Shown here piece after piece: positions 42,482 through 56,849 of a stretch of 64,000 nucleotides of DNA. The stretch's first letter is position 1. Each line of letters begins with the position of its first letter. The DNA is from Caminibacter pacificus. GTDB taxonomy: Bacteria > Campylobacterota > Campylobacteria > Campylobacterales > Nautiliaceae. A program made the position numbers and the translations under genes. Where the stretch lies: contig NZ_RJVK01000003.1 of assembly GCF_003752135.1 (NCBI RefSeq), forward strand, positions 62,001 to 126,000, written 5' to 3'. The notes under the pieces are model-generated. The model had not been told where the DNA came from and made no database searches. It saw only the letters and a list, made by a program, of their open reading frames with translations.

Positions 42482-43333
42482 ATGTTTGCAATAATAGGTC
42501 CTACGGCAAGCGGCAAAAGCGATTTGGCTATCAAACTTGCTAAAAAATTGGGATATGAGATACTTTCACTCGATAGTTTAAGCATTTATAAAGAAGTGGA
42601 TATCGCTTCTGCAAAACCCTCAAAAGAAGAACTAAAAGAAGTCAAACATTACGGAATAAACGAAATATATCCCGATGAAAAATTCGACGTTTCCAAATTT
42701 ATAGAGATATATAAAAAAATCCCTCACAAAAATATAATTATAGTAGGCGGGACCGGATTTTATTTAAAAGCTATGATTGACGGAATATCAAAAATGCCTC
42801 AAATCACTGAAGAAATTAGAAAAAAAGCAAAAAGAGGAGATTACGAACTTCTAAAAAAAATAGACCCGCTTTTCGCTTCTAAGATTTCACCGAGCGATAC
42901 TTATAGAATTCAAAAAGGACTCGAAATATATTTTGCAACCGATATGCCGCCGAGCGAATATTTCAAAAAAAATCCTCCTCTTCCGGTATTACCGGATATT
43001 AAAATATTCGAAATAGCAGTCGATAGAGAAACTCTTAGAAAAAGAATAGAAAAAAGAACGGGGAAAATGTTTGATTCGGGGCTTATTGACGAAGTCGCAT
43101 ATCTTGAAGCGAAATACAAAGACAGAAGACTTCCCGCTTTAAAAGCTATAGGAGTAAAAGAAGTGCTCGATTATTTTAACGGCGTATATGACAAACAACA
43201 ACTAAAACAAAAAATAATCACGAATACCGCAAGACTCGCAAAAAGACAACAAACTTTTAATAAAACCCAATTCCCTCAAAAAATCTCAGCGCCTCTTGAA
43301 AAATTGGAGGATATAATCTTAAAAGAGATTTAA
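42482..43333 (+). CDS. miaA: tRNA dimethylallyltransferase
   Basis: Adds the dimethylallyl group to A37 of tRNAs that read UNN codons. The product has 283 residues. The P-loop is IIGPTASGKSDLA, then LSLDSLSIYKEVDIASAKPS (DSxQ-like), VVGGTGFYLKAMIDG, and late LPALKAIGVKEVLDYF with RLAKRQQTFNKTQF at the tRNA-binding end. It is slightly shorter than E. coli MiaA. Its 3' end overlaps pflA by 15 bp on the other strand. Confidence 0.95.
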   Translation: MFAIIGPTASGKSDLAIKLAKKLGYEILSLDSLSIYKEVDIASAKPSKEELKEVKHYGINEIYPDEKFDVSKFIEIYKKIPHKNIIIVGGTGFYLKAMIDGISKMPQITEEIRKKAKRGDYELLKKIDPLFASKISPSDTYRIQKGLEIYFATDMPPSEYFKKNPPLPVLPDIKIFEIAVDRETLRKRIEKRTGKMFDSGLIDEVAYLEAKYKDRRLPALKAIGVKEVLDYFNGVYDKQQLKQKIITNTARLAKRQQTFNKTQFPQKISAPLEKLEDIILKEI

Positions 43334-45559
43334 AGCGTCCTTACATAATCCTTTCCAAAGTTTGGAATCTTTTACGTTTAGACATTTTTGTAAATAATCT
43401 TTTTTCCCCGTTAGGTTCGCAAGCATAAAATATGCCCTCGCCAAATCTTCACCTTTAACTTTCGGTATCAGTTTTTCAAGGACTTTTATAGCTTCATTTT
43501 TATTTTTCGTATATTTTGCAAAAACAAAATCTACAAAAGGCGAATAAGGATAGGCATTGAATCTGTTTTGTAAATCTATTATTTTTTTAGCGTATGTAGC
43601 GGCTAAGAGATAATCTTTGTTTTGCATAGCCCAATTAACGATTTTTATATAAGCGTCGGCATTTTGAATAGTTTGGTATTTTTCAAGTTTTTGTGCGGTT
43701 TTTAGAGCTTGTTTATATTTTCCTAAATTCCAAAGAGCAAAAAACTTATACATCAGATATTTATGACAATTTCTCTCAATCTGACACAAATCATCAACAG
43801 CAGTCACTACGTTTTTATAATCCCTCATACACCAAAGAGCCTCGATTTTTCTTTTCATCCACTTCACAAACACTTCATCACTCGGATTATCCAAGTATTT
43901 ATTGCATATTGCCGATGCCAATTTACAATCTTTCACTTTCATAGCGCAGCTATAAACTTTTTCATCTTCTTTTAAATTAAGTTTATATTTTTTAATAAGC
44001 TCTATTGCTTTTTGGCAATATCCTTTTTCTAAAAGCTCTTTTGCATATTCCGAAGCTACCTTTTTAATAAAAGTATCTTTTTGCGGGAATAGTTTTTTCG
44101 GAATATTTTTAATCTCTTTTTGAAGTTTTAAAATTTCGTCGTATTTTTTTAATTTATAAAGAATTTTAATTTTTTCGACCAAAGCTTTTTTAGCAATATC
44201 TGTATTTTTGTATTCGTTTAACACTTTATCTATATATTGAAGTTTTTTAGTAAGATTTTGTTCCGGTACTTCAAAAAGAACTTTATCTCTTAAAGCCTTG
44301 ATATTATCGCTATAATCTCCGTATGGAAACTCTTTTAAGTATTTATTGATAAATTTTAAAGATTTTTGATAATCACCAGCTTCATAACTCCAAAGCGCTA
44401 AATTATAAAGCAAAGGCTCATACAAATCATCCAATTTTTTGAGTCTTTTTAACAAATCTTCACCGATATTTATCGCTAAATTATAAACCTTTTCACTTGC
44501 AAGTCTTTTTGCGAGTTCGTAAGCTTTTCTTTTGTCTTTTAACAAAAACTCTTTATTGGCTTTATAAATTTTTTCATAATATTCAATCGCTTTTTTTACT
44601 TGTCCTTTATCCATATATCTTTGTGCAAGCCTTAATGCCGCAAGAGAAGCTACGTTTATATCTTTTGTAGAATAAAGGGCTTTTTCATATAGTTTGAAAG
44701 CTTTTTTTTCATCTCCCATAGTATAGAGTTGGTCTGCGAGATATATCATGGCTTTATAGGCGTATTTGGTATTCGGATACTCCGTAATAATTCTATTAAA
44801 AAAATAACTCGCATCACTAATAAGTCCCATTTTCGAATAATTTTCGCCTATCAAAAGCAAAACTTCAGGAAGTTTAGGAGAGTATGCAAATTTTTTAATC
44901 CACTCTTTTCCGAGCTGTACGACATCTTCGGATTGATTTTCTCTATCTAAAATTTTAAGTTTTAAATACAAAACGTCGGATAAAAATATGGAATTCGGAT
45001 ATTCTTTTACAAACTGGTCTATCTCGTCAAGAACGTCGCGCCCTTTTTTGTAGGCTTTTAAAATCTCGAAATATTTTGCTATATCCATTGCGTTTTCGCC
45101 TCTTATCGGGCGCAAATTTTCATCAATAGCGCCTATATAAGGATAAACGGCGTGTTTATAATAAAAATCAAGACCTTTATTTGTATTTTCCAAATACTGC
45201 TCGTTTGCAACAATAACCCATTTTTTAGCTTTTTTTAATCTAAAAGGAGTAATTAGAGGTTTTTTATAAAGATTATCTTTAAACGCAAAAACTTTAAAGT
45301 TGTCCGATTTTATTTTGATCGTAATAGTAAATTTTTTTGAAAATTTAGGAATCACTTGAAAAAATCTGCTCTCTTCTTTAAAAACGGGAGTTTTCGGAGT
45401 TTTGTCAAAAACACAAATAAAAGTCTTTTCTTTCAAAGAACATTTAAAAGGAAATTTATTGTAAATAGTAAGTACTTCGTAAGGTTTCTTTGCATTTCCG
45501 TAATCGATGTTTAGTTGTAATGCAAAAAGAAATACGGGGAAAAAGAGAAAAAATCTCAA
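43319..45559 (-). CDS. pflA: paralysed flagella protein PflA (TPR, periplasmic)
   Basis: The product has 746 residues, with a signal peptide (MRFFLFFPVFLFA), a beta-rich N-terminal 120 residues, then a long array of TPR-like helical repeats (for example YAYKAMIYLADQLYTMGDEKKAF and ALRLAQRYMDKGQVKKAIEYYEKIY). In Campylobacter PflA forms periplasmic spokes around the flagellar motor and is needed for rotation; there too, pflA sits directly after nuoN, which is why I call it so. The start is TTG with AAAAAGG at 6 nt. The ribosome site lies in the 3' arm of a 11-bp hairpin whose 5' arm holds the nuoN stop, so translation is probably coupled. Confidence 0.82.
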   Translation of the reverse strand: MRFFLFFPVFLFALQLNIDYGNAKKPYEVLTIYNKFPFKCSLKEKTFICVFDKTPKTPVFKEESRFFQVIPKFSKKFTITIKIKSDNFKVFAFKDNLYKKPLITPFRLKKAKKWVIVANEQYLENTNKGLDFYYKHAVYPYIGAIDENLRPIRGENAMDIAKYFEILKAYKKGRDVLDEIDQFVKEYPNSIFLSDVLYLKLKILDRENQSEDVVQLGKEWIKKFAYSPKLPEVLLLIGENYSKMGLISDASYFFNRIITEYPNTKYAYKAMIYLADQLYTMGDEKKAFKLYEKALYSTKDINVASLAALRLAQRYMDKGQVKKAIEYYEKIYKANKEFLLKDKRKAYELAKRLASEKVYNLAINIGEDLLKRLKKLDDLYEPLLYNLALWSYEAGDYQKSLKFINKYLKEFPYGDYSDNIKALRDKVLFEVPEQNLTKKLQYIDKVLNEYKNTDIAKKALVEKIKILYKLKKYDEILKLQKEIKNIPKKLFPQKDTFIKKVASEYAKELLEKGYCQKAIELIKKYKLNLKEDEKVYSCAMKVKDCKLASAICNKYLDNPSDEVFVKWMKRKIEALWCMRDYKNVVTAVDDLCQIERNCHKYLMYKFFALWNLGKYKQALKTAQKLEKYQTIQNADAYIKIVNWAMQNKDYLLAATYAKKIIDLQNRFNAYPYSPFVDFVFAKYTKNKNEAIKVLEKLIPKVKGEDLARAYFMLANLTGKKDYLQKCLNVKDSKLWKGLCKDALNLF

Positions 45560-45560
45560 C

Positions 45561-45595
45561 TCTAACCTTTTTGCTAATTATATCAAAAGGTTAGA
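45561..45595 (-). promoter_or_regulatory. hairpin covering the pflA ribosome site and nuoN stop
   Basis: TCTAACCTTTT and AAAAGGTTAGA form a perfect 11-bp stem around a 13-nt loop. On the minus strand the nuoN stop is in the 5' arm and the AAAAAGG of pflA in the 3' arm. Ribosomes ending nuoN would open it. There is no T-run directly after it, so it is less likely a terminator. Confidence 0.6.
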
Positions 45596-46922
45596 ATGCA
45601 ACCGTTGCGTTAATGATATTTCCTGCAACGATACCGAAATATACCGTTCCCGCAAGTAAAATCAATTGCCCGATTAAACTTCCAGGCGTCATTGTAATTG
45701 TTGTAGTTGATTTTGTATCGTCAAAATAGATATGTTTAATAATCCATACATAGTATCCTACCGCAAGAGCCGAATTTAATAATGCGATTAAAACAATAAC
45801 CCATAATCCGGCATCAACCCCGGCATAAAACGCCACTGCTTTACTTAAAAATCCTGCAAGTAACGGAATACCTGCAAGTGAGAACAATTGAATAGTAAAG
45901 AATAGCGAATGTAAAGGCGCCACTTTGTATAAACCTTTGATATCTTGAAGATATTTCACTCCAAGCTCTCTTCTTAAATCGTTTAGAATCAAAAATACGC
46001 TTGTTTGCATGAAAATATACGCTACTGCATAATATAAAACCCCTGCATATGAATATGCACTTGCTGCCGCCGCAAACGGAATTAACGCATAACCGCTGTG
46101 CGCGATTGATGAAAATGCCAAGATTTTAGAAATTCTCTTTTGCCATAGAGCCATAAAGTTTGCAAGTGTCATTGTAACTATCGCAAAGAAACTGAAAATA
46201 AGTACTGTAGCTACAGGATATGCGATAAGAAATTTATAAAACGCTTTGAACGTAGCAACTAAAACTACGGATTTAATAACCCCACTCAAAATCGCAGCTG
46301 CTGCGTGGTTTACTTGTGCGTAAGCATCAGCAGCCCATCCGTGCATAGGAACAACAGTGAGTTTATAAAAGATACCCGCAAGCATAATAGCTACGGCAAT
46401 TAAAGTAAATTTACCGCTAACGTTCATTTCCGCATAGTTGAAACTATCAGTCGTAAAACTAAATAGTGCAAACCCGAGTAAAATAATACCGCTTGCAACC
46501 GCACCGGCGATAAATGCTTTAATAGCACCTTCCGCGTTGAAGAAGTTTCTGATATTCGCAACTAAAATATAAGAAATAATTGCAATAACTTCAAATAACA
46601 CGATATACATAAAGAAGTTATCCGTTTCCAAAAACGCCAAAGAGGCACCCGCTAAGAAAAGCATTTGAGAAATCAAAGGTCTCTCAAACCCTGTAAGCGC
46701 TAATGAAACCGCAGCTAACGTCGCAAGTAATACGTACTCCATAAGCTGAGTTGCAGTATCAGTCGTAAAATACGGGAATATAGCATGTAAGCTGTTGCCC
46801 GCATAAATAAAATACGCCGCTAAAATAAACGCTACTACCGCTATCATTTTAGCGATAAAAATGTTGTTTCTGTAAAACAGAGGTACCAATAATCCCGCTG
46901 CTATTAATATTATAAAACTCAT
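45591..46922 (-). CDS. nuoN: NADH-quinone oxidoreductase-like subunit N
   Basis: Antiporter-like membrane subunit, 443 residues, about fourteen hydrophobic segments. Marks: the conserved Lys helices AIKAFIAGAVASGIILLG, YKLTVVPMHGWAADAYAQVNHAAAA, and ISKILAFSSIAHSGYALI. I chose the ATG at 46922, 6 nt after GGAGG; a GTG three bases upstream is too close. It overlaps nuoM by one base (TGATG). Last nuo gene, followed by pflA. Confidence 0.94.
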   Translation of the reverse strand: MSFIILIAAGLLVPLFYRNNIFIAKMIAVVAFILAAYFIYAGNSLHAIFPYFTTDTATQLMEYVLLATLAAVSLALTGFERPLISQMLFLAGASLAFLETDNFFMYIVLFEVIAIISYILVANIRNFFNAEGAIKAFIAGAVASGIILLGFALFSFTTDSFNYAEMNVSGKFTLIAVAIMLAGIFYKLTVVPMHGWAADAYAQVNHAAAAILSGVIKSVVLVATFKAFYKFLIAYPVATVLIFSFFAIVTMTLANFMALWQKRISKILAFSSIAHSGYALIPFAAAASAYSYAGVLYYAVAYIFMQTSVFLILNDLRRELGVKYLQDIKGLYKVAPLHSLFFTIQLFSLAGIPLLAGFLSKAVAFYAGVDAGLWVIVLIALLNSALAVGYYVWIIKHIYFDDTKSTTTITMTPGSLIGQLILLAGTVYFGIVAGNIINATVAF

Positions 46923-48352
46923 CACATCCCTCCAAAGAAGCTAAATGCTTGATTTGCTAAATCGAAAATTGGTTGAGGATTGATACCAAAGTAAACAATC
47001 AAAAACGCGTAAATCGCTAATGCGAATTTTTCAGGAAAACTCATAGTAAAGTTTGCTTTTTCCACAATCGGACTCATAGGACCGTGAATTGCACGTCTTA
47101 CAGACCAGATAATGTAACCCGCACTGATTAGACCTGCAAGTGCGATAATAGCAATCCACCAACCGAATGACTTAACAGCCGAGATGATAATTGTAAGCTC
47201 ACCTACAAATCCCATCGTTCCAGGTAGCCCTAACGCCGCCATACCTGCTAAGATGAATATCGCAGCAGCATAAGGCGCTTTTTTCATAATTCCGCCCATC
47301 TCATCCATATACCACGTATGAGTTTTGTGGTGGAACCACCCTGCAAGTAAGAACAGTGGTGAAATTACAAGTGCGTGTCCGATCATTTCGTATAATGCCG
47401 CACTTAAACCATCGTATGTCATAGTAGCTACAGCTACAACAACAAGCCCCATATGCGAAATTGAAGAGTATGCAACCATTTTTTTGATGTGTCTTTCATA
47501 AATAGCAAGCATACCCGCAAATAACGTCGTCGCAAGACCGAGTACCAACATCCACATCGAAAATTGAATCGTAGTTGCCGGCATTAACTCTACCGTAAAT
47601 CTGATAAGCCCGTAAGCACCCATTTTCAAAAGTACACCCGCAAGCAATACCGAAATGCTGCTTGGTGCTTGAACGTGCGCATCAGGTAGCCATGTATGGA
47701 ATGGAAATAGTGGCAATTTAGCCGCAAAACCGATAAACATCAACCACCAAATTAAAGCAGGAGTTGCAATCGCCGCTTCTTTTATCAACGTAAAATCCCA
47801 ATATCCAGTTTGTTTAAAGAGTAAGAAAAACCCGACAAACATAAACATCGCAAAAACGTGCGTATAGATAAAGAACTTAATAGCCGCATAAATTCTTTCT
47901 TCCGCACCCCAAATACCGATTAAGAAAAGCATAGGTACAAGAGTTAATTCCCAGAAAATAAAAAACCATAAAACGTTTGTCGTCATAAATACACCGAAAA
48001 TCGGTCCGCTAAATAGTATCAGCAAACTAAAATAAGCCGCTTGATTTTTTTCTTCCCAAGACGTAAACACTACCAATATAAGTAATGCCGCCGTTAATAA
48101 AAGCATAGCGACACTTAACGCATCTATTTGCAAAGTAAGTTCAAACCCGAACGCAGGAACGCTTAAAAAGTTCCCAAGAAACAAAAACCCGCCGTCAGCC
48201 GGTAATTGATGATACCAATTGAATGCAATAAAGAAAAGTATAATAAACCAACCAAGCGCAATATACTTAGCCAAATGCTGTGCCCCACGTGTTAAAAAAT
48301 ACACAAGGGCCGAGAAAAATATCGGTGCAAAAATAATATCTACCGCTACCAT
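46922..48352 (-). CDS. nuoM: NADH-quinone oxidoreductase-like subunit M
   Basis: Antiporter-like proton-pumping subunit with 476 residues. Marks: FFIFWELTLVPMLFLIGIWG (conserved Glu), AAKLPLFPFHTWLPDAHVQAPSSISVLLAGVLLKMGAYGLIRF, and HIKKMVAYSSISHMGLVV. These carry the conserved Lys and His residues of the proton channel. Adjacent to nuoL with no gap. Confidence 0.95.
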   Translation of the reverse strand: MVAVDIIFAPIFFSALVYFLTRGAQHLAKYIALGWFIILFFIAFNWYHQLPADGGFLFLGNFLSVPAFGFELTLQIDALSVAMLLLTAALLILVVFTSWEEKNQAAYFSLLILFSGPIFGVFMTTNVLWFFIFWELTLVPMLFLIGIWGAEERIYAAIKFFIYTHVFAMFMFVGFFLLFKQTGYWDFTLIKEAAIATPALIWWLMFIGFAAKLPLFPFHTWLPDAHVQAPSSISVLLAGVLLKMGAYGLIRFTVELMPATTIQFSMWMLVLGLATTLFAGMLAIYERHIKKMVAYSSISHMGLVVVAVATMTYDGLSAALYEMIGHALVISPLFLLAGWFHHKTHTWYMDEMGGIMKKAPYAAAIFILAGMAALGLPGTMGFVGELTIIISAVKSFGWWIAIIALAGLISAGYIIWSVRRAIHGPMSPIVEKANFTMSFPEKFALAIYAFLIVYFGINPQPIFDLANQAFSFFGGM

Positions 48353-50203
48353 TTACAGCCCCTTTACAATTATTAAGATAGCAATTACGATAATTGCAAC
48401 ACCAAGGACGAATTGCCCCATATACGTTCCGATTTTACCGCTGTGCCCTGTTTTAAACGCTTTATAAATACCATATGAAGCAGGCACGGTTGCATTAACA
48501 AGCCAGTCGATAACATACGTATCAAACCATCTTGCCGCTTTTGCAATGGCATTAACGATAATGTTTTTAGAAATCCAAGTAATCATAGCTTCAACATAAT
48601 ATCCGTTAAATAGTACTTGATGAATTGTTTGTACGAAATGATGTGATGCGATTTTGTATAGTAGGTTCAATCCTTTTACATACAGACCTACAACGATTAA
48701 GAAAATCACTAACATTCCTGTTAACATAAACGCAGTAAGTCCCGCTACATGCGGCTCTACTACTTCTTTTCCTACGATATAGTGAATAATATCGCTTTGC
48801 CAAATAGCGATGAATAACGTAACAAAAGCTAAGATACCAAGCGGTAATCTAATCCATAAGTTGCTCGGTTTGTGTACGCTTCCAGCAATCTCTTCGTTTC
48901 TCGGCTCACCCAAGAAGATAAGAATCCATAGTCTCGTAATATAACCGATTGATAGCAATGCCGCAATCGTTACGAATGTTTTTGTAAATCCGTTACCCCA
49001 TTCCCAAGCACTTGCAACTACAAGCTCTTTTGAGAAGAAACCACTAAACGGAGGTACACCCGCAAGGCTCAGTGAACCCATAGCCATAAAGAGTGCTACA
49101 AGAGGAGCAGTTTTGATAAGACCTCCGAGTTTCCATGCGTCTTTTGTATGGTGTGCGATGTAAATAACAGCACCAGCACTTAAGAATAATAACGCTTTAA
49201 AGATTGCGTGGTTTACAAGGTGTAGCATACCGGCAGCCAAGCTTCCAACACCAAGACCCACAAACGCAATCGATAAGTGTGACATTGTAGAATAAGCCAA
49301 GATTTTTTTGATCTCTTTTTGTACAAGTGCCGATGTAGCACCGATAAACGCCGAAAGCGCCGCAACGTTTGCAACAATGAAAAGAGCGTCAGTATATGCA
49401 AAGAAATCAAATAGTCTCGCTACGATATAAATACCCGAGTTAACCATTGTCGCACCGTGGATTAACGCAGATACCGTAGTAGGACCTTCCATCGCGTTCA
49501 TTAACCAAGGATACAATGGAAACTGACCTGATTTACCGATAGCACCCATAAAGATAAATAGTGCCGCTACGAGAGCTACCGTTTTATTAAGCTCTCCTGA
49601 TAGAGCCATTTCGTTTAGTTTTACTAAATCTACCGTTCCCGCAAAGAAGAATAGCAATGCAATAGCCGCTAAGATGAAAATATCACCGAATCTCGTATAA
49701 AGAAACGCTTGCATACCTGCATCAGCCGCTGAATTTTTGTAATACCAGAAACTAATCAATAGGTAACTTGCAAGCCCCATGAATTCCCAACCTACAAATG
49801 CACCGATTAAATCTTTTGTAATAACAAGAATAATCATACCGCCGATAAAGAATAGTACTTTTGCATAGTATCTCGGCTGATCTGGGTCTTCACCCATATA
49901 ATCGTGCGCAAAGTGGATATCTAAAAATCCAAGACCTGTCGCTACTAAAAGCATTACAATAGATAAGTGGTCAATATAAATTCCGAACGGTACTTTTAAA
50001 TCTCCGTATGCAATCCATGTATAATCGATATCGATTACCGTATGCGAATAATTAAAAAACAACACCAAACTTGCTAAAAATAGAATAGCTCCCGTTACTT
50101 CAGCTACCCAGAAACTAAGCTCTCTTTTAGCCTTACCTAAAACATACGCCAAAACCGCCCCTAAAAACGGCGCCGTTAGTAAAATCAATACTGCATTATT
50201 CAT
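48353..50203 (-). CDS. nuoL: NADH-quinone oxidoreductase-like subunit L
   Basis: The distal antiporter-like subunit, 616 residues, with the extra C-terminal lateral helix. Marks: LIGAFVGWEFMGLASYLLISFWY, GKSGQFPLYPWLMNAMEGPTTVSALIHGATMV and EIKKILAYSTMSHLSIAFVGLG. The C-terminal part (after 480) is long and amphipathic, as expected for helix HL that braces NuoM and NuoN. Overlaps nuoK by 8 bp. Confidence 0.95.
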   Translation of the reverse strand: MNNAVLILLTAPFLGAVLAYVLGKAKRELSFWVAEVTGAILFLASLVLFFNYSHTVIDIDYTWIAYGDLKVPFGIYIDHLSIVMLLVATGLGFLDIHFAHDYMGEDPDQPRYYAKVLFFIGGMIILVITKDLIGAFVGWEFMGLASYLLISFWYYKNSAADAGMQAFLYTRFGDIFILAAIALLFFFAGTVDLVKLNEMALSGELNKTVALVAALFIFMGAIGKSGQFPLYPWLMNAMEGPTTVSALIHGATMVNSGIYIVARLFDFFAYTDALFIVANVAALSAFIGATSALVQKEIKKILAYSTMSHLSIAFVGLGVGSLAAGMLHLVNHAIFKALLFLSAGAVIYIAHHTKDAWKLGGLIKTAPLVALFMAMGSLSLAGVPPFSGFFSKELVVASAWEWGNGFTKTFVTIAALLSIGYITRLWILIFLGEPRNEEIAGSVHKPSNLWIRLPLGILAFVTLFIAIWQSDIIHYIVGKEVVEPHVAGLTAFMLTGMLVIFLIVVGLYVKGLNLLYKIASHHFVQTIHQVLFNGYYVEAMITWISKNIIVNAIAKAARWFDTYVIDWLVNATVPASYGIYKAFKTGHSGKIGTYMGQFVLGVAIIVIAILIIVKGL

Positions 50204-50504
50204 CGCTCACCGCCTTATCTAATTTGTCAGGAATTACCTCACCGGTAATTCTATTAGATAAAATGAAAATAAGTACACCTGCCGCCGCTTCAAGAGTTGC
50301 AATTACGATAATTACGTACGCAACGGCCAAACCTCTTGTAAATCCGAAATGATATGCCGCACTTGCAAGAAGTAAAATAACGGCGTTTAATAACATTTCG
50401 AGTGAAAAGAAGATTTTCAAAAAGTCACTCTTACTCGTAACCCCGTAAAGCCCCACTCCAAAAAGGATAATGGCAGCTATCGCGTCTATATAAAACCCTA
50501 CCAT
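50196..50504 (-). CDS. nuoK: NADH-quinone oxidoreductase-like subunit K
   Basis: MrpC-like membrane subunit, 102 residues, three helices. Marks: FFSLEMLLNAVILLLAS (the conserved Glu in helix 2) and VIVIATLEAAAGVLIFIL (Glu in helix 3), both needed for proton transfer. Two bases after nuoJ. Confidence 0.94.
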   Translation of the reverse strand: MVGFYIDAIAAIILFGVGLYGVTSKSDFLKIFFSLEMLLNAVILLLASAAYHFGFTRGLAVAYVIIVIATLEAAAGVLIFILSNRITGEVIPDKLDKAVSDE

Positions 50505-50506
50505 TT

Positions 50507-50974
50507 TTATTCCTTTCCATGTTTTAGAGTGTGTAGCATTCTGATACTTCCGTAAAGAACGCTTGCCGCAACCACACCCATAAAGATTGCAATTTGAGCA
50601 TAAAAATCAGTAAATATCTTCACTTGGTCTTTTAGAGGAATCGCTTTCCCTTCGTATGGAATATCCGGAATTAAAAACGGTACGATTAAAAGACCGATAA
50701 TTACGATTGTTACAACACTAACAGCCCAAGGTCTGATTTCGTATTTAGGGAATTTAGAACCGATAACCGTAACCCCGAAAAGTGTTAATACAACGATACC
50801 ACCCGTATATACGAAAATTTGGAAAAGTCCTAATAATTTTTCATCCATAAGAATGTAATAGATTCCTAATAAAAACATCATCAAAACGAATGACAATACC
50901 GCAGGTACGGTATTTTTTTGAGTAAGACTCATTATTGCCAAGATAATAGCAACAGCAAGAATCAATACGCTCAT
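50507..50974 (-). CDS. nuoJ: NADH-quinone oxidoreductase-like subunit J
   Basis: Membrane subunit with five helices, 155 residues, slightly short. Marks: LFQIFVYTGGIVVLTLFGVTVIG, the NuoJ signature with the pi-bulge Tyr-Thr-Gly-Gly. Overlaps nuoI by ATGA. Confidence 0.93.
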   Translation of the reverse strand: MSVLILAVAIILAIMSLTQKNTVPAVLSFVLMMFLLGIYYILMDEKLLGLFQIFVYTGGIVVLTLFGVTVIGSKFPKYEIRPWAVSVVTIVIIGLLIVPFLIPDIPYEGKAIPLKDQVKIFTDFYAQIAIFMGVVAASVLYGSIRMLHTLKHGKE

Positions 50975-51558
50975 TTCTCCTCTCCTTTTTCAGCAGAAGC
51001 GTTTTTTTGCTCTGCACTCTCCTCTTTTTTAGCTTCAGTAGCTTCCGCTTTAGCTTTTTCTTCAGCCTTTTTCTTAGCTTCAGCCTCGGCTTTTTTCTTA
51101 GCCATCATCTCTTTTTTCTTTCTCGCTTTTTCTTCTTCTTCACGTTTTTTCTGCTCAATCCACTCTTCAGGTACGTCAACTCTTACCCAGAAGTTATCAA
51201 GGTCTTTATGAGTACCTCCGGTAATCATTTCAATATCACCGCCGCTAAGCTTAATAGCTTTTTCAGGTTTTGTAGGACAAACGTCCTCACACAAACCACA
51301 GAAAATACATATAGCCAAATTAACTTCCGGAATAATTTTAGGCTTTTTAATCGGAAGCGGCTTCATAACGATCGCATCAACAGGACAAATTTTATTACAA
51401 GCGTCACACCCGATACAAAGTTCGTATTTAATTTCGTGTCTTCCTCTAAAGATAGGAGACTTGTGAGCCGGTTCTTTTACGATATCTTTCGTTGCTATTC
51501 TCGGCTCCGTAAAAGCTTTCATAACTCTTACGATTTTTTCACTGATTTGAAATAACAT
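50971..51558 (-). CDS. nuoI: NADH-quinone oxidoreductase-like subunit I with charged tail
   Basis: Carries the two [4Fe-4S] clusters N6a and N6b: CIGCDACNKICPVDAI and CIFCGLCEDVCPTKPEKAI. The product has 195 residues. From residue 135 on it has a long Lys/Glu/Ala-rich helix (EEEEKARKKKEMMAKKK, AEAEAKKKAEEKAKAE) of about 60 residues that normal NuoI lacks. As the complex has no NuoEFG, this exposed tail could help a soluble donor or partner dock, but that is a guess. Confidence 0.94.
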   Translation of the reverse strand: MLFQISEKIVRVMKAFTEPRIATKDIVKEPAHKSPIFRGRHEIKYELCIGCDACNKICPVDAIVMKPLPIKKPKIIPEVNLAICIFCGLCEDVCPTKPEKAIKLSGGDIEMITGGTHKDLDNFWVRVDVPEEWIEQKKREEEEKARKKKEMMAKKKAEAEAKKKAEEKAKAEATEAKKEESAEQKNASAEKGEEK

Positions 51559-51559
51559 C

Positions 51560-52531
51560 TTATGCTCCTAAAATGTAAAGTTTTGCAAAAATTACCCACA
51601 CTAAGTTAAGTACCGCAAGCGGTGTTAACCAGCTCCAACAGAATTTAAGCATTTGATCAAGTCTAAGTCTCGGGTTAGAAGCCCTAATAGCAACCATTAC
51701 AACCGCAAGAAGTGCGATTTTTAAGAATAACCACCAGAAACTATCAAAGAAAATTCCTCTGTATCCTCCGAAAAACAATGTAATTGCAGCAGCTGATACC
51801 ACTAAAATTTCAGTAAATTCCGCGAATTTTAAAAGCGTATAGTTAGTACCTGCATATTCCGTATAAAACCCGTAAACGATTTCTTGTTCCGCATCAGGAA
51901 TATGGAATGGAGGTTGTTCTAAAATACCGAGCATCGTAATAATGAAAATAATGGCTCCAGGTAAAAGAATTAGAGTCGTAAGCCAAGTATTGCTATACAT
52001 AATCTCATATAGATTCATAGTACCAAAAAGCAAAGCAGGACTTAATGCCGCTAAGAAAAACGGCGCTTCCATAGAAAGCATTTGAGCCAAAATTCTCATA
52101 CCACCTAAAAACGAATATTTATTGTTTGAACCGAATCCCGTTAAGAATAGCAAGAAAGGTTCAACTCCGATTAAAACTACAAGCCCTAAAACTCCGTATT
52201 GAGTATCCAAAATTCCATGTCCGTTATTAATTAAAGGCGTCCAAGGAATTAAAATTACAGGCAATGCCGCAACAAGCGGTGTAATAATCGGAATAATATT
52301 AAATAAATACGGGTCCGCACTTTTTGGCGTAATAGATTCTTTTGTCAAAAGCTTAAATACGTCATAAACCGTTTGCAAAGACCCTGCCGGTCCGTTATAG
52401 TGAGGTCCAACCCTTTTATGCAAATATGCAAGAACTTTTCTTGAAAAATAAAACACGAAAAACGTCCATGCAAGCAAGAAAACAAGTCCAGGGAAAACTA
52501 AAATGTAAAATAAAATTTCTCCAACGCTCAT
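51560..52531 (-). CDS. nuoH: NADH-quinone oxidoreductase-like subunit H
   Basis: Membrane subunit that forms part of the quinone site and joins the arms. The product has 323 residues with eight helices. Marks: KRVGPHYNGPAGSLQTVYDVFKLLTKE, LGILEQPPFHIPDAEQEIVYGFYTEYAGTNYTLLKFAEF and the end RLRLDQMLKFCWSWLTPLAVLN. All are standard NuoH, with the glutamates of the E-channel visible. Confidence 0.95.
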   Translation of the reverse strand: MSVGEILFYILVFPGLVFLLAWTFFVFYFSRKVLAYLHKRVGPHYNGPAGSLQTVYDVFKLLTKESITPKSADPYLFNIIPIITPLVAALPVILIPWTPLINNGHGILDTQYGVLGLVVLIGVEPFLLFLTGFGSNNKYSFLGGMRILAQMLSMEAPFFLAALSPALLFGTMNLYEIMYSNTWLTTLILLPGAIIFIITMLGILEQPPFHIPDAEQEIVYGFYTEYAGTNYTLLKFAEFTEILVVSAAAITLFFGGYRGIFFDSFWWLFLKIALLAVVMVAIRASNPRLRLDQMLKFCWSWLTPLAVLNLVWVIFAKLYILGA

Positions 52532-52540
52532 ACCCTCTCC

Positions 52541-54190
52541 TTATCTATCCAGGTCACCCTGACAGATATGCATACTACCGTAAAGTAGAGGAATATCTGA
52601 TAGGGTATGCCCTGGAAGTAATCTTTCAAGAATCATAGTGTGATTTACACTCGGTGCTTTTATTTTTAGTCTATAAGGCGTAGTTGCTTTCTCGCCGGTT
52701 ACGAGATGCATTAACATCTCACCTCTTGCCCATTCAACTCTACTAACCGCTTCACCCGCAGGCAGTCTTTTTGGCATTTTAACCAAATGGTCTTTTTTAG
52801 GGTCCATTTCTCCGGCTTCAACACCTTCTTCTATTTTTTTCATCGCTTGTTGGATTAAATCAACAGCTTGATTGATTTCTTTATAAATAATATAAAGTCT
52901 ATCTCTCGCATCACCGCTGTCGCATGTTACGTAATCCATTTCAAGTTCATCGTAAGCAGCGTAAGGTTCGTCGATTCTTACGTCTATTTTAGCTCCGCTT
53001 GCTCTTGCAATAGGTCCTGCTAAATAGAACTCTTCGACATCATCAAGAGTAAATACTCCCGTACCTTTAGCCCTTACGGTCATAAGAGGGTTTTTAAGGA
53101 AAATATCTTCAATATCAGGTTTTGTTTTTTCCCATTTTGCAATAGCTTTATTAATTTCCGCAAACCACGCTTTATAATCGTTTAGAGGATATCTAACACC
53201 TCCCGGTTCTATACACGCAGTCGCAATTCTCGCTCCGCTGTAATCTTCAAGAACGTCAAGGAAATATTCTCTAACATCCAAACACCACATTAAAAACGTT
53301 TGAAGTCCCATTGTTCCGAAAAATCCGCCAAGTGAAATTAAGTGAGACGCAATTCTTCCCGTTTCACCCAAAATAACTCTCATATATTTAGCAAAAGGTG
53401 TAATCTCTTTTCCGGCAATTTCTTCTACCGCTTGAGAATAACAAATCATCGGATTAGGATTATCCATAAAACAGATTCTCTCAACCGCTACGATAGTACC
53501 GATAAAATCTTTTCTTTCCGCTAAATTTTCAAGAGCACGCCAAACGTATCCAATATCAGGCTCCACTTTTTCAATATTTTCACCGTTAACGAAAACTTTT
53601 AGTCTGATAGGTCCGCTTGCAGGGTGTGTCGGTCCCCAGTGAAGTACCGTTCTACTTCCCTCATGTCCTAACGTTCTTTCGTGTTCTTCATATTCTTCAT
53701 GAAACTCTTCGGTAATAGCATTTACGTTTTCAATTAAATGTTTTTCATGTTCTTTCCAATCGAAATCTTTTCTAAACGGAAACTTACCGTAATAATCTCT
53801 ACTGATTAGGAAAAATCTTAAATCAGGATGACCTTTAAATTTAACACCGAAAGTCGAATATGCTTCAAGCTCGTGATAATTCGCACTCGGCATCAAAGGA
53901 GTAATCGAATCTATTTCGCACTTCTCAAGGTCTCTATCAACGTCCACTTTCAACCATACGTTTCTTTTATTTGTCAAATCTTCAAGAAAATAGTTAACTT
54001 CAATCCTATTTTCGTCGATAAAATCAGTAGGAGAAACGGTAGAACAAGTTTTTACTCCCGCTTCTTTCAGAGCTTTTACTACATCAAGTAAATCCTCTTT
54101 GTTTTTAAGTTTTGCTTTTACCCAACTCTTTTTATAATCCTCAACGTATTCCGTATCGAATTTATTAAGTATCTCTTTAATTCTCTCCAT
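52541..54190 (-). CDS. nuoCD: NuoCD fusion, atypical at the quinone site
   Basis: The product has 549 residues: a NuoC-like part (1-145) joined to a NuoD/hydrogenase-large-subunit part. Start: ATG at 54190 with AAGG at 6 nt; the ATG at 54196 abuts it. NuoD usually begins GPxHPSTHG with a His that contacts quinone; here it is GPTHPASG (186-193), one residue shorter and without that His. The usual R-x-D-Y (Tyr contacting quinone) is R-I-C-F (238-241). NiFe-hydrogenase CxxC pairs are absent, though single Cys are at 240 and 543 near those places. The end QGDLDR resembles the Complex I GEVDR. It therefore lies between Complex I and Ehr/hydrogenase forms. nuoH follows directly. Confidence 0.9.
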   Translation of the reverse strand: MERIKEILNKFDTEYVEDYKKSWVKAKLKNKEDLLDVVKALKEAGVKTCSTVSPTDFIDENRIEVNYFLEDLTNKRNVWLKVDVDRDLEKCEIDSITPLMPSANYHELEAYSTFGVKFKGHPDLRFFLISRDYYGKFPFRKDFDWKEHEKHLIENVNAITEEFHEEYEEHERTLGHEGSRTVLHWGPTHPASGPIRLKVFVNGENIEKVEPDIGYVWRALENLAERKDFIGTIVAVERICFMDNPNPMICYSQAVEEIAGKEITPFAKYMRVILGETGRIASHLISLGGFFGTMGLQTFLMWCLDVREYFLDVLEDYSGARIATACIEPGGVRYPLNDYKAWFAEINKAIAKWEKTKPDIEDIFLKNPLMTVRAKGTGVFTLDDVEEFYLAGPIARASGAKIDVRIDEPYAAYDELEMDYVTCDSGDARDRLYIIYKEINQAVDLIQQAMKKIEEGVEAGEMDPKKDHLVKMPKRLPAGEAVSRVEWARGEMLMHLVTGEKATTPYRLKIKAPSVNHTMILERLLPGHTLSDIPLLYGSMHICQGDLDR

Positions 54191-54199
54191 CGCCATCCC

Positions 54200-54673
54200 T
54201 TAAAATTTCATTTGTTTCCAAAGACCGCCTTGGCTTGAAGCACTCGGCTCACCTCTTTTGATTTTCTCTTTCAACTCTTCAAGCCCGGCAACAATCGCTT
54301 CAGGTTTTGGAGGACATCCCGCAACGAAAACGTCAGCCGGTAAAATTTCGGTCATATTTTTAATTACCGACGGAGAATCGTTATAAGGTCCGCCGTCATA
54401 AGCGCAAGCACCGATAGCCACAACATATCTCGGCTCAGGCATTTGCTCATACGTTCTTAAAAGTGCAGGTAAGATTTTTTTACTTACAAGCCCCGTAATA
54501 AAAATAATATCAGCTTGTCTCGGAGTCGGAGTCATGATATATCCGTATCTCTCCCAATCGTATCTCGGTCCCATAGCAGCAAGCATTTCAAGGGAACAAC
54601 ACCCGCTACAAAAATGCACTATCCATGGAGACTTACTTCTTGCATAATTAAAAAAATCAAGCACTTTTAGCAT
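54200..54673 (-). CDS. nuoB: NADH-quinone oxidoreductase-like subunit B
   Basis: Holds the terminal cluster N2. The product has 157 residues. The four cluster Cys are present: the tandem pair in FCSGCCSLEML, the third in VVAIGACAYDGG, the fourth in VFVAGCPPKPEAIV. The tandem CC is the Complex I form, not the hydrogenase form. An additional Cys lies three residues before the pair. Overlaps nuoA by 17 bp. Confidence 0.95.
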   Translation of the reverse strand: MLKVLDFFNYARSKSPWIVHFCSGCCSLEMLAAMGPRYDWERYGYIMTPTPRQADIIFITGLVSKKILPALLRTYEQMPEPRYVVAIGACAYDGGPYNDSPSVIKNMTEILPADVFVAGCPPKPEAIVAGLEELKEKIKRGEPSASSQGGLWKQMKF

Positions 54674-54995
54674 TTCTATACTCCTTCATACTAACTGTAA
54701 TAGCCGCAAACAATAAAATCCCGAAAACCATAGCCCATTTTAAAGCTTCAGGATTGTCGGCAAATACGAACAAACTAAAAAATAATCCCGCCATATCGAA
54801 TACGATAAAAGCGATTGCAAAAATGAAATAGCCGAAATTAGCCTTCATAGGCACTTCACTACTCGGCGGCAAACCACATTCGAAGTGATCGTTTTTAATC
54901 TCTCCGGGATTAAAAGGCGCAACTGCAATACCTAAAAAGTAAAGCAAAAGCACGCCCGCAAGTATTCCCGTACCATAAATGATAATGGTTTCCAT
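54657..54995 (-). CDS. nuoA: NADH-quinone oxidoreductase-like subunit A
   Basis: Membrane subunit with three helices, about 112 residues from the ATG at 54995 behind AAAGGAGAC; an upstream in-frame start has no ribosome site. The conserved loop is FECGLPPSSEVPMKANFGYFIFAIAFIVFDMAGLFF, with the loop Cys and the Glu/Asp pair. First gene of the nuo operon. NuoA is absent from hydrogenases, which supports a Complex I-type assembly. Confidence 0.95.
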   Translation of the reverse strand: METIIIYGTGILAGVLLLYFLGIAVAPFNPGEIKNDHFECGLPPSSEVPMKANFGYFIFAIAFIVFDMAGLFFSLFVFADNPEALKWAMVFGILLFAAITVSMKEYRNAKSA

Positions 54996-55056
54996 TGCGT
55001 CTCCTTTTTCGTTGTATATTATCAAACTCTAAAGAGAGTTTTCATATTATTTTCAT

Positions 55057-55145: not shown

Positions 55146-56849
55146 CTATACGAATCCTACCTCTTTTTCACTGTCAAAAGCACTTTTTTTCTCACTTTTT
55201 ATCTCTTCTATAAAATCTTTAAGTTTAAAAATCGGTTTTTTCTTCATAGCTACTTTTAACGCGGTATTTTTAATAATAAGTTCTATTTGAGCCCCTGTCA
55301 AATCGTATTTCGCAAGCTCATTTACATCGAAATCTTCTTCGAAATCCGCATTTTTAGGAAGTTTTTTTTGCCAAAGTTTCACTCTTTCTTTAAACGTAGG
55401 CTTTTCAAATTTGATTTTATAATCGAACCTTCTTGAAAACGCGCTGTCAATAGTTTCCAAAAGATTCGTCGTGGCAATCAATACGCCTTCAAACTTTTCG
55501 AGTTGTTCTAAAAAGATATTTTGCATTTGATTATGCATTTTATCGGCACTGCTAAAAGCAGCAGTCGTTCTTGTCGATAAAAATTGGTCAGCTTCGTTTA
55601 ACAATAAAACCGGCTTTGTTTTTAATTTTTCGCTAATTTCATAATATTCGTCAAACAATCTTCTTACGTTTTTTTCGCTCTCTCCTACATACATGGAAAG
55701 AATTTTGCTCGAATCAAGTGAAAGTACCGGTTTATTAAGCTCTTTTGCAATAGCGTGAGCGGTAAGAGTTTTTCCGGTACCCGGATGTCCGTAAAATATG
55801 ATTTTAGCATCCAAATCGTTATTTTGTTTTATTCCCCATTTTTTAAGTAAATTAACTACTCTTTTATCGATTTGTTTAAGCACTCTTTTTACCATTTCCA
55901 TTGTAGGTTTAGGCAATACTACGTCTTCAAGGGAATTTTTAGGCTCCACCAAATCGAAAATCGTATCTTTTACCAAATGTTCCAATTTATGTTTTCTTCT
56001 TGGGTGAATGAGTTCGTTTAAAATATCTTCGCTTATAAAATATATTTTCGTATATCCGCCAAACGCTCCGAAAAGCTCGTCATAATCGATAATACCTTCA
56101 CTAACTAATTTCGAATTTTCATCAAGCAAACTTCTATTTTTTATCCTCTCAATCTCATCGGCACTTATTAAATCAAGCAGTCTGTTAAGCTCTCTTGCGT
56201 TTTCGCTGCCTCCTGTATACTCTTCTTTTAAAAGCGCTAAGAAAATTATTTCCTCTTTTTCGTTAAAATCGTTTTCTATCATAAAATTAAGTACCGGTAA
56301 ATCTATTTGAGTTTTTTTAACTCTCTCTTTTATCGTACTTTCTATCAATTTAAGTTTGCTTTGAAGTCTTTTTATAGAAGCCGTTTCGTTTGAGAAGCTA
56401 TTTTTTAAATTTGCAAGCTGTTCGTAAATGTCTATTCTTAAAAATTGATCGTGCAAATATTCCAAATGGTCTTTATAAGGAGTTTTTTGAGGAATAACAA
56501 GCTCCAAATCCCCGTTTTCAAGAAGTTTTAAAAACGCTACCGATAACGATACGTTTGCGTTAAAAAGTTCAAGAGCGCTAAGTTCAGGACTTTTTGCACC
56601 GAAAAAGCTTACTACAACCCACCCTTCTTCTATTAAATTTTTAATAGTTCCGATATGCTCGAAAGCTTCAAGTTTATCATCCGAATATATTTTTTGTAAA
56701 ATATTTCTGACTTTTACGTCCTCTTGCCCTTCGATATACATTTCAAGCATATGTTTTAAAACTTCAACTTCTTCTTTTGAAATGTTTAATATTTTATAAA
56801 CTTTGCTTTTTTTGGGATTTTTCAAAAATTCTTTAATATTTTCTACCAA
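55146..56849 (-). CDS. AAA+ ATPase of unknown role
   Basis: The product has 567 residues. The AAA+ core: Walker A YGHPGTGKT (residues 353-361), Walker B PVLLLNEADQFL with Asn in place of the usual Asp before Glu, sensor-1 IATTN, and the arginine finger SRRFD. The N-terminal 330 residues are helical, with no known domain that I can name. The C-terminal lid is YDLTGAQIELIIKNTALKVA. The layout resembles Campylobacter AAA-family ATPases of uncertain function (Cdc48/SpoVK-like). The start is TTG with AAGGAG at 5 nt. Single gene, downstream of the nuo promoter region. Confidence 0.85.
   Translation of the reverse strand: MVENIKEFLKNPKKSKVYKILNISKEEVEVLKHMLEMYIEGQEDVKVRNILQKIYSDDKLEAFEHIGTIKNLIEEGWVVVSFFGAKSPELSALELFNANVSLSVAFLKLLENGDLELVIPQKTPYKDHLEYLHDQFLRIDIYEQLANLKNSFSNETASIKRLQSKLKLIESTIKERVKKTQIDLPVLNFMIENDFNEKEEIIFLALLKEEYTGGSENARELNRLLDLISADEIERIKNRSLLDENSKLVSEGIIDYDELFGAFGGYTKIYFISEDILNELIHPRRKHKLEHLVKDTIFDLVEPKNSLEDVVLPKPTMEMVKRVLKQIDKRVVNLLKKWGIKQNNDLDAKIIFYGHPGTGKTLTAHAIAKELNKPVLSLDSSKILSMYVGESEKNVRRLFDEYYEISEKLKTKPVLLLNEADQFLSTRTTAAFSSADKMHNQMQNIFLEQLEKFEGVLIATTNLLETIDSAFSRRFDYKIKFEKPTFKERVKLWQKKLPKNADFEEDFDVNELAKYDLTGAQIELIIKNTALKVAMKKKPIFKLKDFIEEIKSEKKSAFDSEKEVGFV

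Follow-up and report, generated by a model that had tools for sequence, protein, structure and literature searches.

Introduction

Yu et al. (2020) derive complex I from hydrogenase through a stepwise loss of four nickel cysteines, in which MBS represents the two-cysteine step. MBS reduces polysulfide with electrons from ferredoxin at a [4Fe-4S] cluster held by three Cys ligands, and C85 and C385 of its large subunit MbsL, two of the four NiFe cysteines, are dispensable for its activity (PMC7684303). In complex I, a Tyr and a His have an established role in holding and protonating quinone (PMC8119997), and for hydrogenases the residues of a proton path and canopy have been described (PMC9474812). 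The 11-subunit complex I-like enzymes (Nuo-like, Fpo, NDH-1) comprise subunits A, B, C, D and H-N, with the pump residues present and NuoE/F/G absent. For Nautilia profundicola, a 'partial NUO' without nuoK was described and its coupling to quinone was assumed (Campbell 2009; PMC2628731).

Here, we analyse an operon, evidently of the same family as the Nautilia one, in a 64,000-nucleotide stretch of the Caminibacter pacificus genome (the window; contig NZ_RJVK01000003.1, positions 62,001 to 126,000). Its products represent a lineage of their own within the complex I superfamily, one in which the usual quinone-site residues are missing. The reading we prefer, with a probability of about 45%, is a ferredoxin-linked pump whose redox partner would be a sulfur couple (polysulfide, disulfide or thiol), proton-coupled and maybe reversible. 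In the open-licence literature, no paper was found that describes the missing quinone residues or an MBS-like state of this enzyme, and the Nautilia NUO appears only as a 'partial complex I'.

Operon organization and host genome

The operon comprises ten genes in the order nuoA-B-CD-H-I-J-K-L-M-N, is intact on the minus strand (window 45591-55025) and is without the NADH module:

54657..55025, minus strand: nuoA
54200..54673, minus strand: nuoB, carries the terminal [4Fe-4S] cluster
52541..54196, minus strand: nuoCD, fused 30 kDa and 49 kDa subunits, 551 aa, variant large subunit
51560..52531, minus strand: nuoH, E. coli E36 replaced by S30 and PFD213 by PFH (His or Asn in the clade)
50971..51558, minus strand: nuoI, two 4Fe-4S clusters, eight Cys kept in 53/53
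50507..50974, minus strand: nuoJ
50196..50504, minus strand: nuoK, E36 and E72 conserved
48353..50203, minus strand: nuoL, pump residues E144, K229 and K399 conserved
46922..48352, minus strand: nuoM, pump residues E144, K234 and E407 conserved in the window
45591..46925, minus strand: nuoN, pump residues K217, K247 and K395 conserved

Apart from the fusion of C and D, this set matches the 11-subunit complex I-like enzymes, including the absence of NuoE/F/G from the operon, and a NuoF-type 51 kDa family protein is encoded nowhere in the host genome (99.99% complete). Sequence predicts three [4Fe-4S] cluster sites, two in NuoI and one in NuoB. In contrast to the description by Campbell (2009), nuoK is present both in the window and in the Nautiliaceae genome G062 (1,676,444 bases), which carries the operon. 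No other complex I-like enzyme turned up in the Nautiliaceae genomes that were examined. Its conserved neighbours in this family, and only there, are an AAA ATPase gene upstream of nuoA (window 55146-56849, minus strand) and a DUF7494/TPR gene downstream of nuoN (window 43319-45559, minus strand).

Two menaquinone (futalosine) genes, both of family PF02621, also lie in the host genome, which encodes a PsrC-type protein as well. A second odd large subunit, of group 4 type and in its own gene cluster, lies elsewhere in the genome (G000:C2, about 124451-125815; L109:8452-9816, plus strand); it has lost both CxxC motifs (ERISGNES, FDLSYAGNDL) and is possibly Ehr-like.

Quinone-site residues of the large subunit

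NuoCD was aligned with Thermus Nqo4, E. coli NuoCD, the fly 49 kDa subunit and Aquifex NuoCD2, and the clade of variant sequences (61 rows) was compared with 28 complex I rows covering Thermus, E. coli, fly, Aquifex and two Campylobacterota types. The altered positions of the quinone site are:

53612..53626, minus strand: HPASG, NuoCD residues 191-195, without Nqo4 H38, in a loop one residue shorter than in complex I
53462..53479, minus strand: RICFMD, residues 240-245, with C242 as the first NiFe Cys, Y87 replaced by F243 and the second Cys by D245
53312..53314, minus strand: T295, equivalent of Nqo4 D139, which is Asp in 28/28 complex I rows

The initial annotation had pointed to HPASG in place of HPSTHG and to RICF in place of R-x-D-Y, and the alignment bears out both, with H38 replaced by Ser and Y87 by Phe throughout the clade. 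A third altered residue, which it did not name, is D139, the partner Asp of the quinone-site His, which is mostly Thr, Asn or Ala in the clade. This triad is kept in all 28 complex I rows and in none of the 61 variant rows. In NuoH, both E36 and the Asp of PFD are lost, so that the altered chamber reaches from NuoD into the NuoH tunnel.

The suggestion that the enzyme uses another acceptor or has an altered quinone site therefore stands, since the triad is absent clade-wide and kept in the normal NuoD of hosts that carry both proteins. Together with the two cysteines described below, these losses indicate that the electron partner is probably something other than quinone in its usual site. A host without quinone as the cause can be rejected: menaquinone-synthesis genes are present in the host and several hosts have a normal complex I, so the change is not due to a missing quinone.

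Two further deviations were observed. At NuoCD residue 330 (Nqo4 R174), complex I has an Arg in 28/28 rows and the variant clade a Glu without exception, so that IRPGGV reads IEPGGV. Separately, a second common Campylobacterota type of NuoCD fusion (L022-L035) combines HPASHG or HPATHG with RLNYCS; it keeps both His and Tyr, with the Asp before the Tyr changed to Asn and a Cys after it.

Retained hydrogenase cysteines and proton path

The C-terminus of NuoCD, HICQGDLDR, contains the second of the two former NiFe motifs:

52553..52570, minus strand: HICQGD, residues 543-548, with H543 at the place of the canopy Asp (His or Tyr across the clade), C545 kept and D548 as the second residue of the pair

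Both NiFe CxxC pairs, noted earlier as missing, indeed read CxxD (C242/D245 and C545/D548), and the single cysteine seen at each place is in both cases the first of its pair. As the second Cys is an Asp, no NiFe site is expected, even though the four residues, by alignment, occupy the four nickel-ligand positions of hydrogenases. When the residue pattern was checked across relatives, C242 proved invariant in 61/61 homologues (55-91% identity) and C545 was present in 59/59 rows reaching that position, which cannot be put down to chance or sequencing error. Decay of a complex I, or an error of sequencing or assembly, is accordingly of negligible probability: nothing was found in its favour, and it is rejected by the strict conservation of the odd residues in open reading frames from about 60 genomes, at identities down to 55%, by the shared order of the genes and by pump and cluster residues that have stayed intact.

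With the group 4 [NiFe] hydrogenases the variant shares C242/C545, R491, S284 and H285; it differs from them in the Asp at each second Cys, where both of their CxxC pairs are complete, and in a shorter Cys loop in NuoB. The clade conserves a proton path and canopy of hydrogenase type (S284, H285, R398, E440, R491), with E440 being Asp in 5/61. From all 28 complex I rows, conversely, the variant differs in possessing two NiFe cysteines as well as in lacking the triad.

The C-x-x-D motif, occurring twice at hydrogenase nickel-ligand positions, raises the question of whether C242, D245, C545 and D548 still bind a metal, or whether the enzyme serves some other acceptor, such as protons, a metal ion or a flavoprotein partner. 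We consider this improbable, given that MbsL has a near-identical C-x-x-E / C-x-x-D arrangement for which no metal is mentioned in the MBS text consulted, and that complex I proteins generally carry an acid at the position of D548.

In the clade, residue 543, which precedes C545 by two positions, is without exception either His (24) or Tyr (36). Although the alignment places no His or Tyr equivalents of H38 and Y87 at shifted positions, this residue could serve a remodelled quinone site. On such an arrangement, the enzyme would be a menaquinone-linked, ferredoxin-type complex in which His/Tyr543, Arg491 and the kept proton path (H285/R398/E440/R491) replace H38 and Y87. The menaquinone genes of the host agree with this, as does the quinone coupling assumed for Nautilia (PMC2628731), whereas the invariance of H38, Y87 and D139 in all 28 complex I rows, including the normal NuoD of dual hosts, and the additional loss of the NuoH tunnel residues speak against it. 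Moreover, C242 and C545 are invariant, and we know of no quinone role for two such cysteines.

Terminal cluster and membrane arm

Evidence from the remaining subunits bears on both readings, beginning with the NuoB cluster:

54596..54610, minus strand: CSGCC, NuoB residues 22-26, combining the tandem CC of complex I with an extra Cys aligned with MbsJ C25, 58/58

The motif reads FCSGCCSLEM; the tandem CC ligands of cluster N2 are present, and all five NuoB cysteines are conserved, in 58/58 sequences. With four complex I-type cysteines and one extra, the MBS-like open iron is not predicted. The membrane arm is, as judged from its sequence, of the full three-pump complex I type: NuoL E144/K229/K399, NuoM E144/E407, NuoN K217/K247/K395, NuoK E36/E72 and NuoA D79 are invariant in the clade, and NuoM K234 is Lys in 45/47. 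Because the purely complex I-like membrane arm and the NuoB cluster, whose tandem CC is a complex I trait, both fit a menaquinone-linked enzyme, we regard that alternative as nearly as likely as the preferred pump acting on a sulfur couple.

The resemblance to MBS of Pyrococcus furiosus (PDB 6u8y) nevertheless extends over several features of the large subunit. Equivalents of H38 and Y87 are absent from both; in the alignment, MbsL shows the same one-residue deletion in the beta1-beta2 loop relative to complex I; each NiFe pair has retained its first Cys and has an acid in place of the other; and both systems have a ferredoxin-type cluster relay. In a phmmer search against the PDB, MBS was the first match for NuoB (MbsJ) and the second for NuoCD (MbsL), the lead of MbsJ over mitochondrial homologues being small. 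That a polysulfide reducer fed by ferredoxin shares the two-Cys state, the missing His and Tyr and the loop deletion is among the arguments for a sulfur partner here, to which these sequence matches add. On the other hand, MBS is encoded by 13 genes with Mrp-type membrane subunits (mbsABCDEGHH'), its terminal cluster has three Cys, and MbsL has lost the proton-path His and Ser that variant NuoD retains. Membership in MBS is thus ruled out by the NuoB ligands, the membrane arm and the tree. The MBS mechanism also needs the three-Cys cluster with open iron, and the dispensability of MbsL C85/C385 (PMC7684303) weakens any argument from the shared cysteines.

Structure prediction for NuoCD gave a pLDDT of 69 from 14 close homologues, which is poor, and of 90 with a deeper alignment. 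A fold search ranked HycE (7z0s) best, followed by Aquifex and E. coli NuoCD, an order that does not separate the competing readings.

Phylogeny and distribution

With the diagnostic columns removed, the variant clade (100/100) falls outside MbsL plus complex I (100/97), next to the hydrogenases; the full-column tree also places it between group 4 hydrogenases and MBS plus complex I. AU tests reject placing the clade with MbsL (p 0.008) and also uniting it with complex I while leaving MbsL outside (p 0.009), both on a single MbsL row and with long branches. The proposed position intermediate between complex I and Ehr/group 4 hydrogenases is thus supported by the branching with respect to group 4 hydrogenases, but among the group 4 hydrogenases, MBS and complex I compared, the closest residue state is that of MBS.

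Two peptide patterns specific to the clade, which reach close relatives only, were run against 84,980 species genomes and returned 51 loci, all with the variant signature where the sequence reaches. Their hosts are Nautiliaceae, Sulfurovum, Sulfurimonas, Nitratifractor, Thiovulum, other vent Campylobacterota and two MAGs with gamma-proteobacterial labels. In the latter (L071 and L084, labelled Thiomicrospira cyclica and Thiotrichales), the operon reflects either transfer or mis-binning from a Thiovulum-like organism. The named close homologues are Nautiliaceae MAGs, and a plasmid search yielded only ordinary NuoC/D at < 60% identity.

In the phylum panel, 14/397 genomes carry the variant, including 9/9 members of the window's family among the genomes listed. 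The five carriers outside Nautiliales, which are Sulfurovum/Sulfurimonas-type hosts, encode in addition an ordinary NuoD that reads HPSAHG and RxDY; there, the variant is therefore an addition and not a replacement.

Operon partners and proposed function

Further hints come from genes inserted into the operon elsewhere in the clade. In two loci, nuoJ and nuoK are separated by a complete pyruvate:ferredoxin oxidoreductase (TIGR02176, about 1,800 bits against a cut-off of 911) and a dihydroorotate-dehydrogenase-like gene, all tightly packed:

L089:13631-19443: nuoJ-nuoK insert, which also holds a 415 aa membrane-protein-like ORF
L098:9536-14093: nuoJ-nuoK insert

A pyruvate:ferredoxin oxidoreductase inside the operon ties the complex to ferredoxin or flavodoxin, as the preferred reading of a ferredoxin-linked sulfur enzyme supposes; the missing NuoF-type protein and the conserved pump residues agree with it as well.

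At five Sulfurimonas-type loci, the operon additionally includes a gene for a CoA-disulfide-reductase-like flavoprotein. In L080, L086 and L098 this gene and nuoA share 4 nt; in L097 it sits 46 bp upstream of nuoA, and in L067 it comes 10 bp after nuoN. Its scores are below the NCBIfam equivalog cut-off; the Cys aligned with the active-site Cys known for the family is invariant. Among 91 non-Nautiliales panel genomes, the gene occurs in every carrier (5/5) and in 10/86 of the others (p 6e-5, uncorrected for relatedness), and within the families that hold carriers the figures for carriers and non-carriers are 2/2 vs 0/5, 2/2 vs 0/3 and 1/1 vs 2/6. This association favours a sulfur partner. However, it forms part of the operon in Sulfurimonas-type loci alone, and flavoproteins of this kind also serve other functions; no close homologue was found in most Nautiliaceae, and the neighbours of its stand-alone copies gave no further functional hint. 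A sulfur partner is also made less compelling by the Psr-type polysulfide reductase that Nautiliaceae already own (PMC2628731).

If the preferred reading is right, ferredoxin (or flavodoxin) would dock at NuoI and its electrons would travel by way of the NuoI clusters to that of NuoB, which would exchange them with a small sulfur couple inside the chamber, an exchange coupled to proton movement through NuoN, NuoM and NuoL. In sulfide- or H2-driven autotrophs, the enzyme may run backwards, the proton gradient then yielding low-potential ferredoxin for the reductive TCA cycle. In redox terms, the sulfide/polysulfide couple is much closer to ferredoxin than menaquinol is, so that a reversed three-pump machine could make ferredoxin for this purpose. 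A more specific version, in which C242 and C545 form a dithiol/disulfide next to the NuoB cluster, H/Y543 and R491 act as proton donors, and a proton-gradient-driven ferredoxin:sulfur oxidoreductase supports reverse ferredoxin synthesis without quinone in sulfide-using autotrophs, is speculative and, taken as a whole, unlikely.

Implications

Set against the stepwise scheme of nickel-cysteine loss, the variant is a second two-cysteine lineage, bacterial and already equipped with a complex I-type membrane arm and NuoB cluster, which makes it a natural intermediate for testing which part changed first. Campbell (2009) assumed quinone for an enzyme evidently of this family, whose NuoD lacks the quinone residues. 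Since no second complex I-like enzyme was found in the examined genomes of Nautiliaceae, energy schemes for this family that are drawn around a quinone-linked NUO would need revision if it is true that the variant skips quinone.
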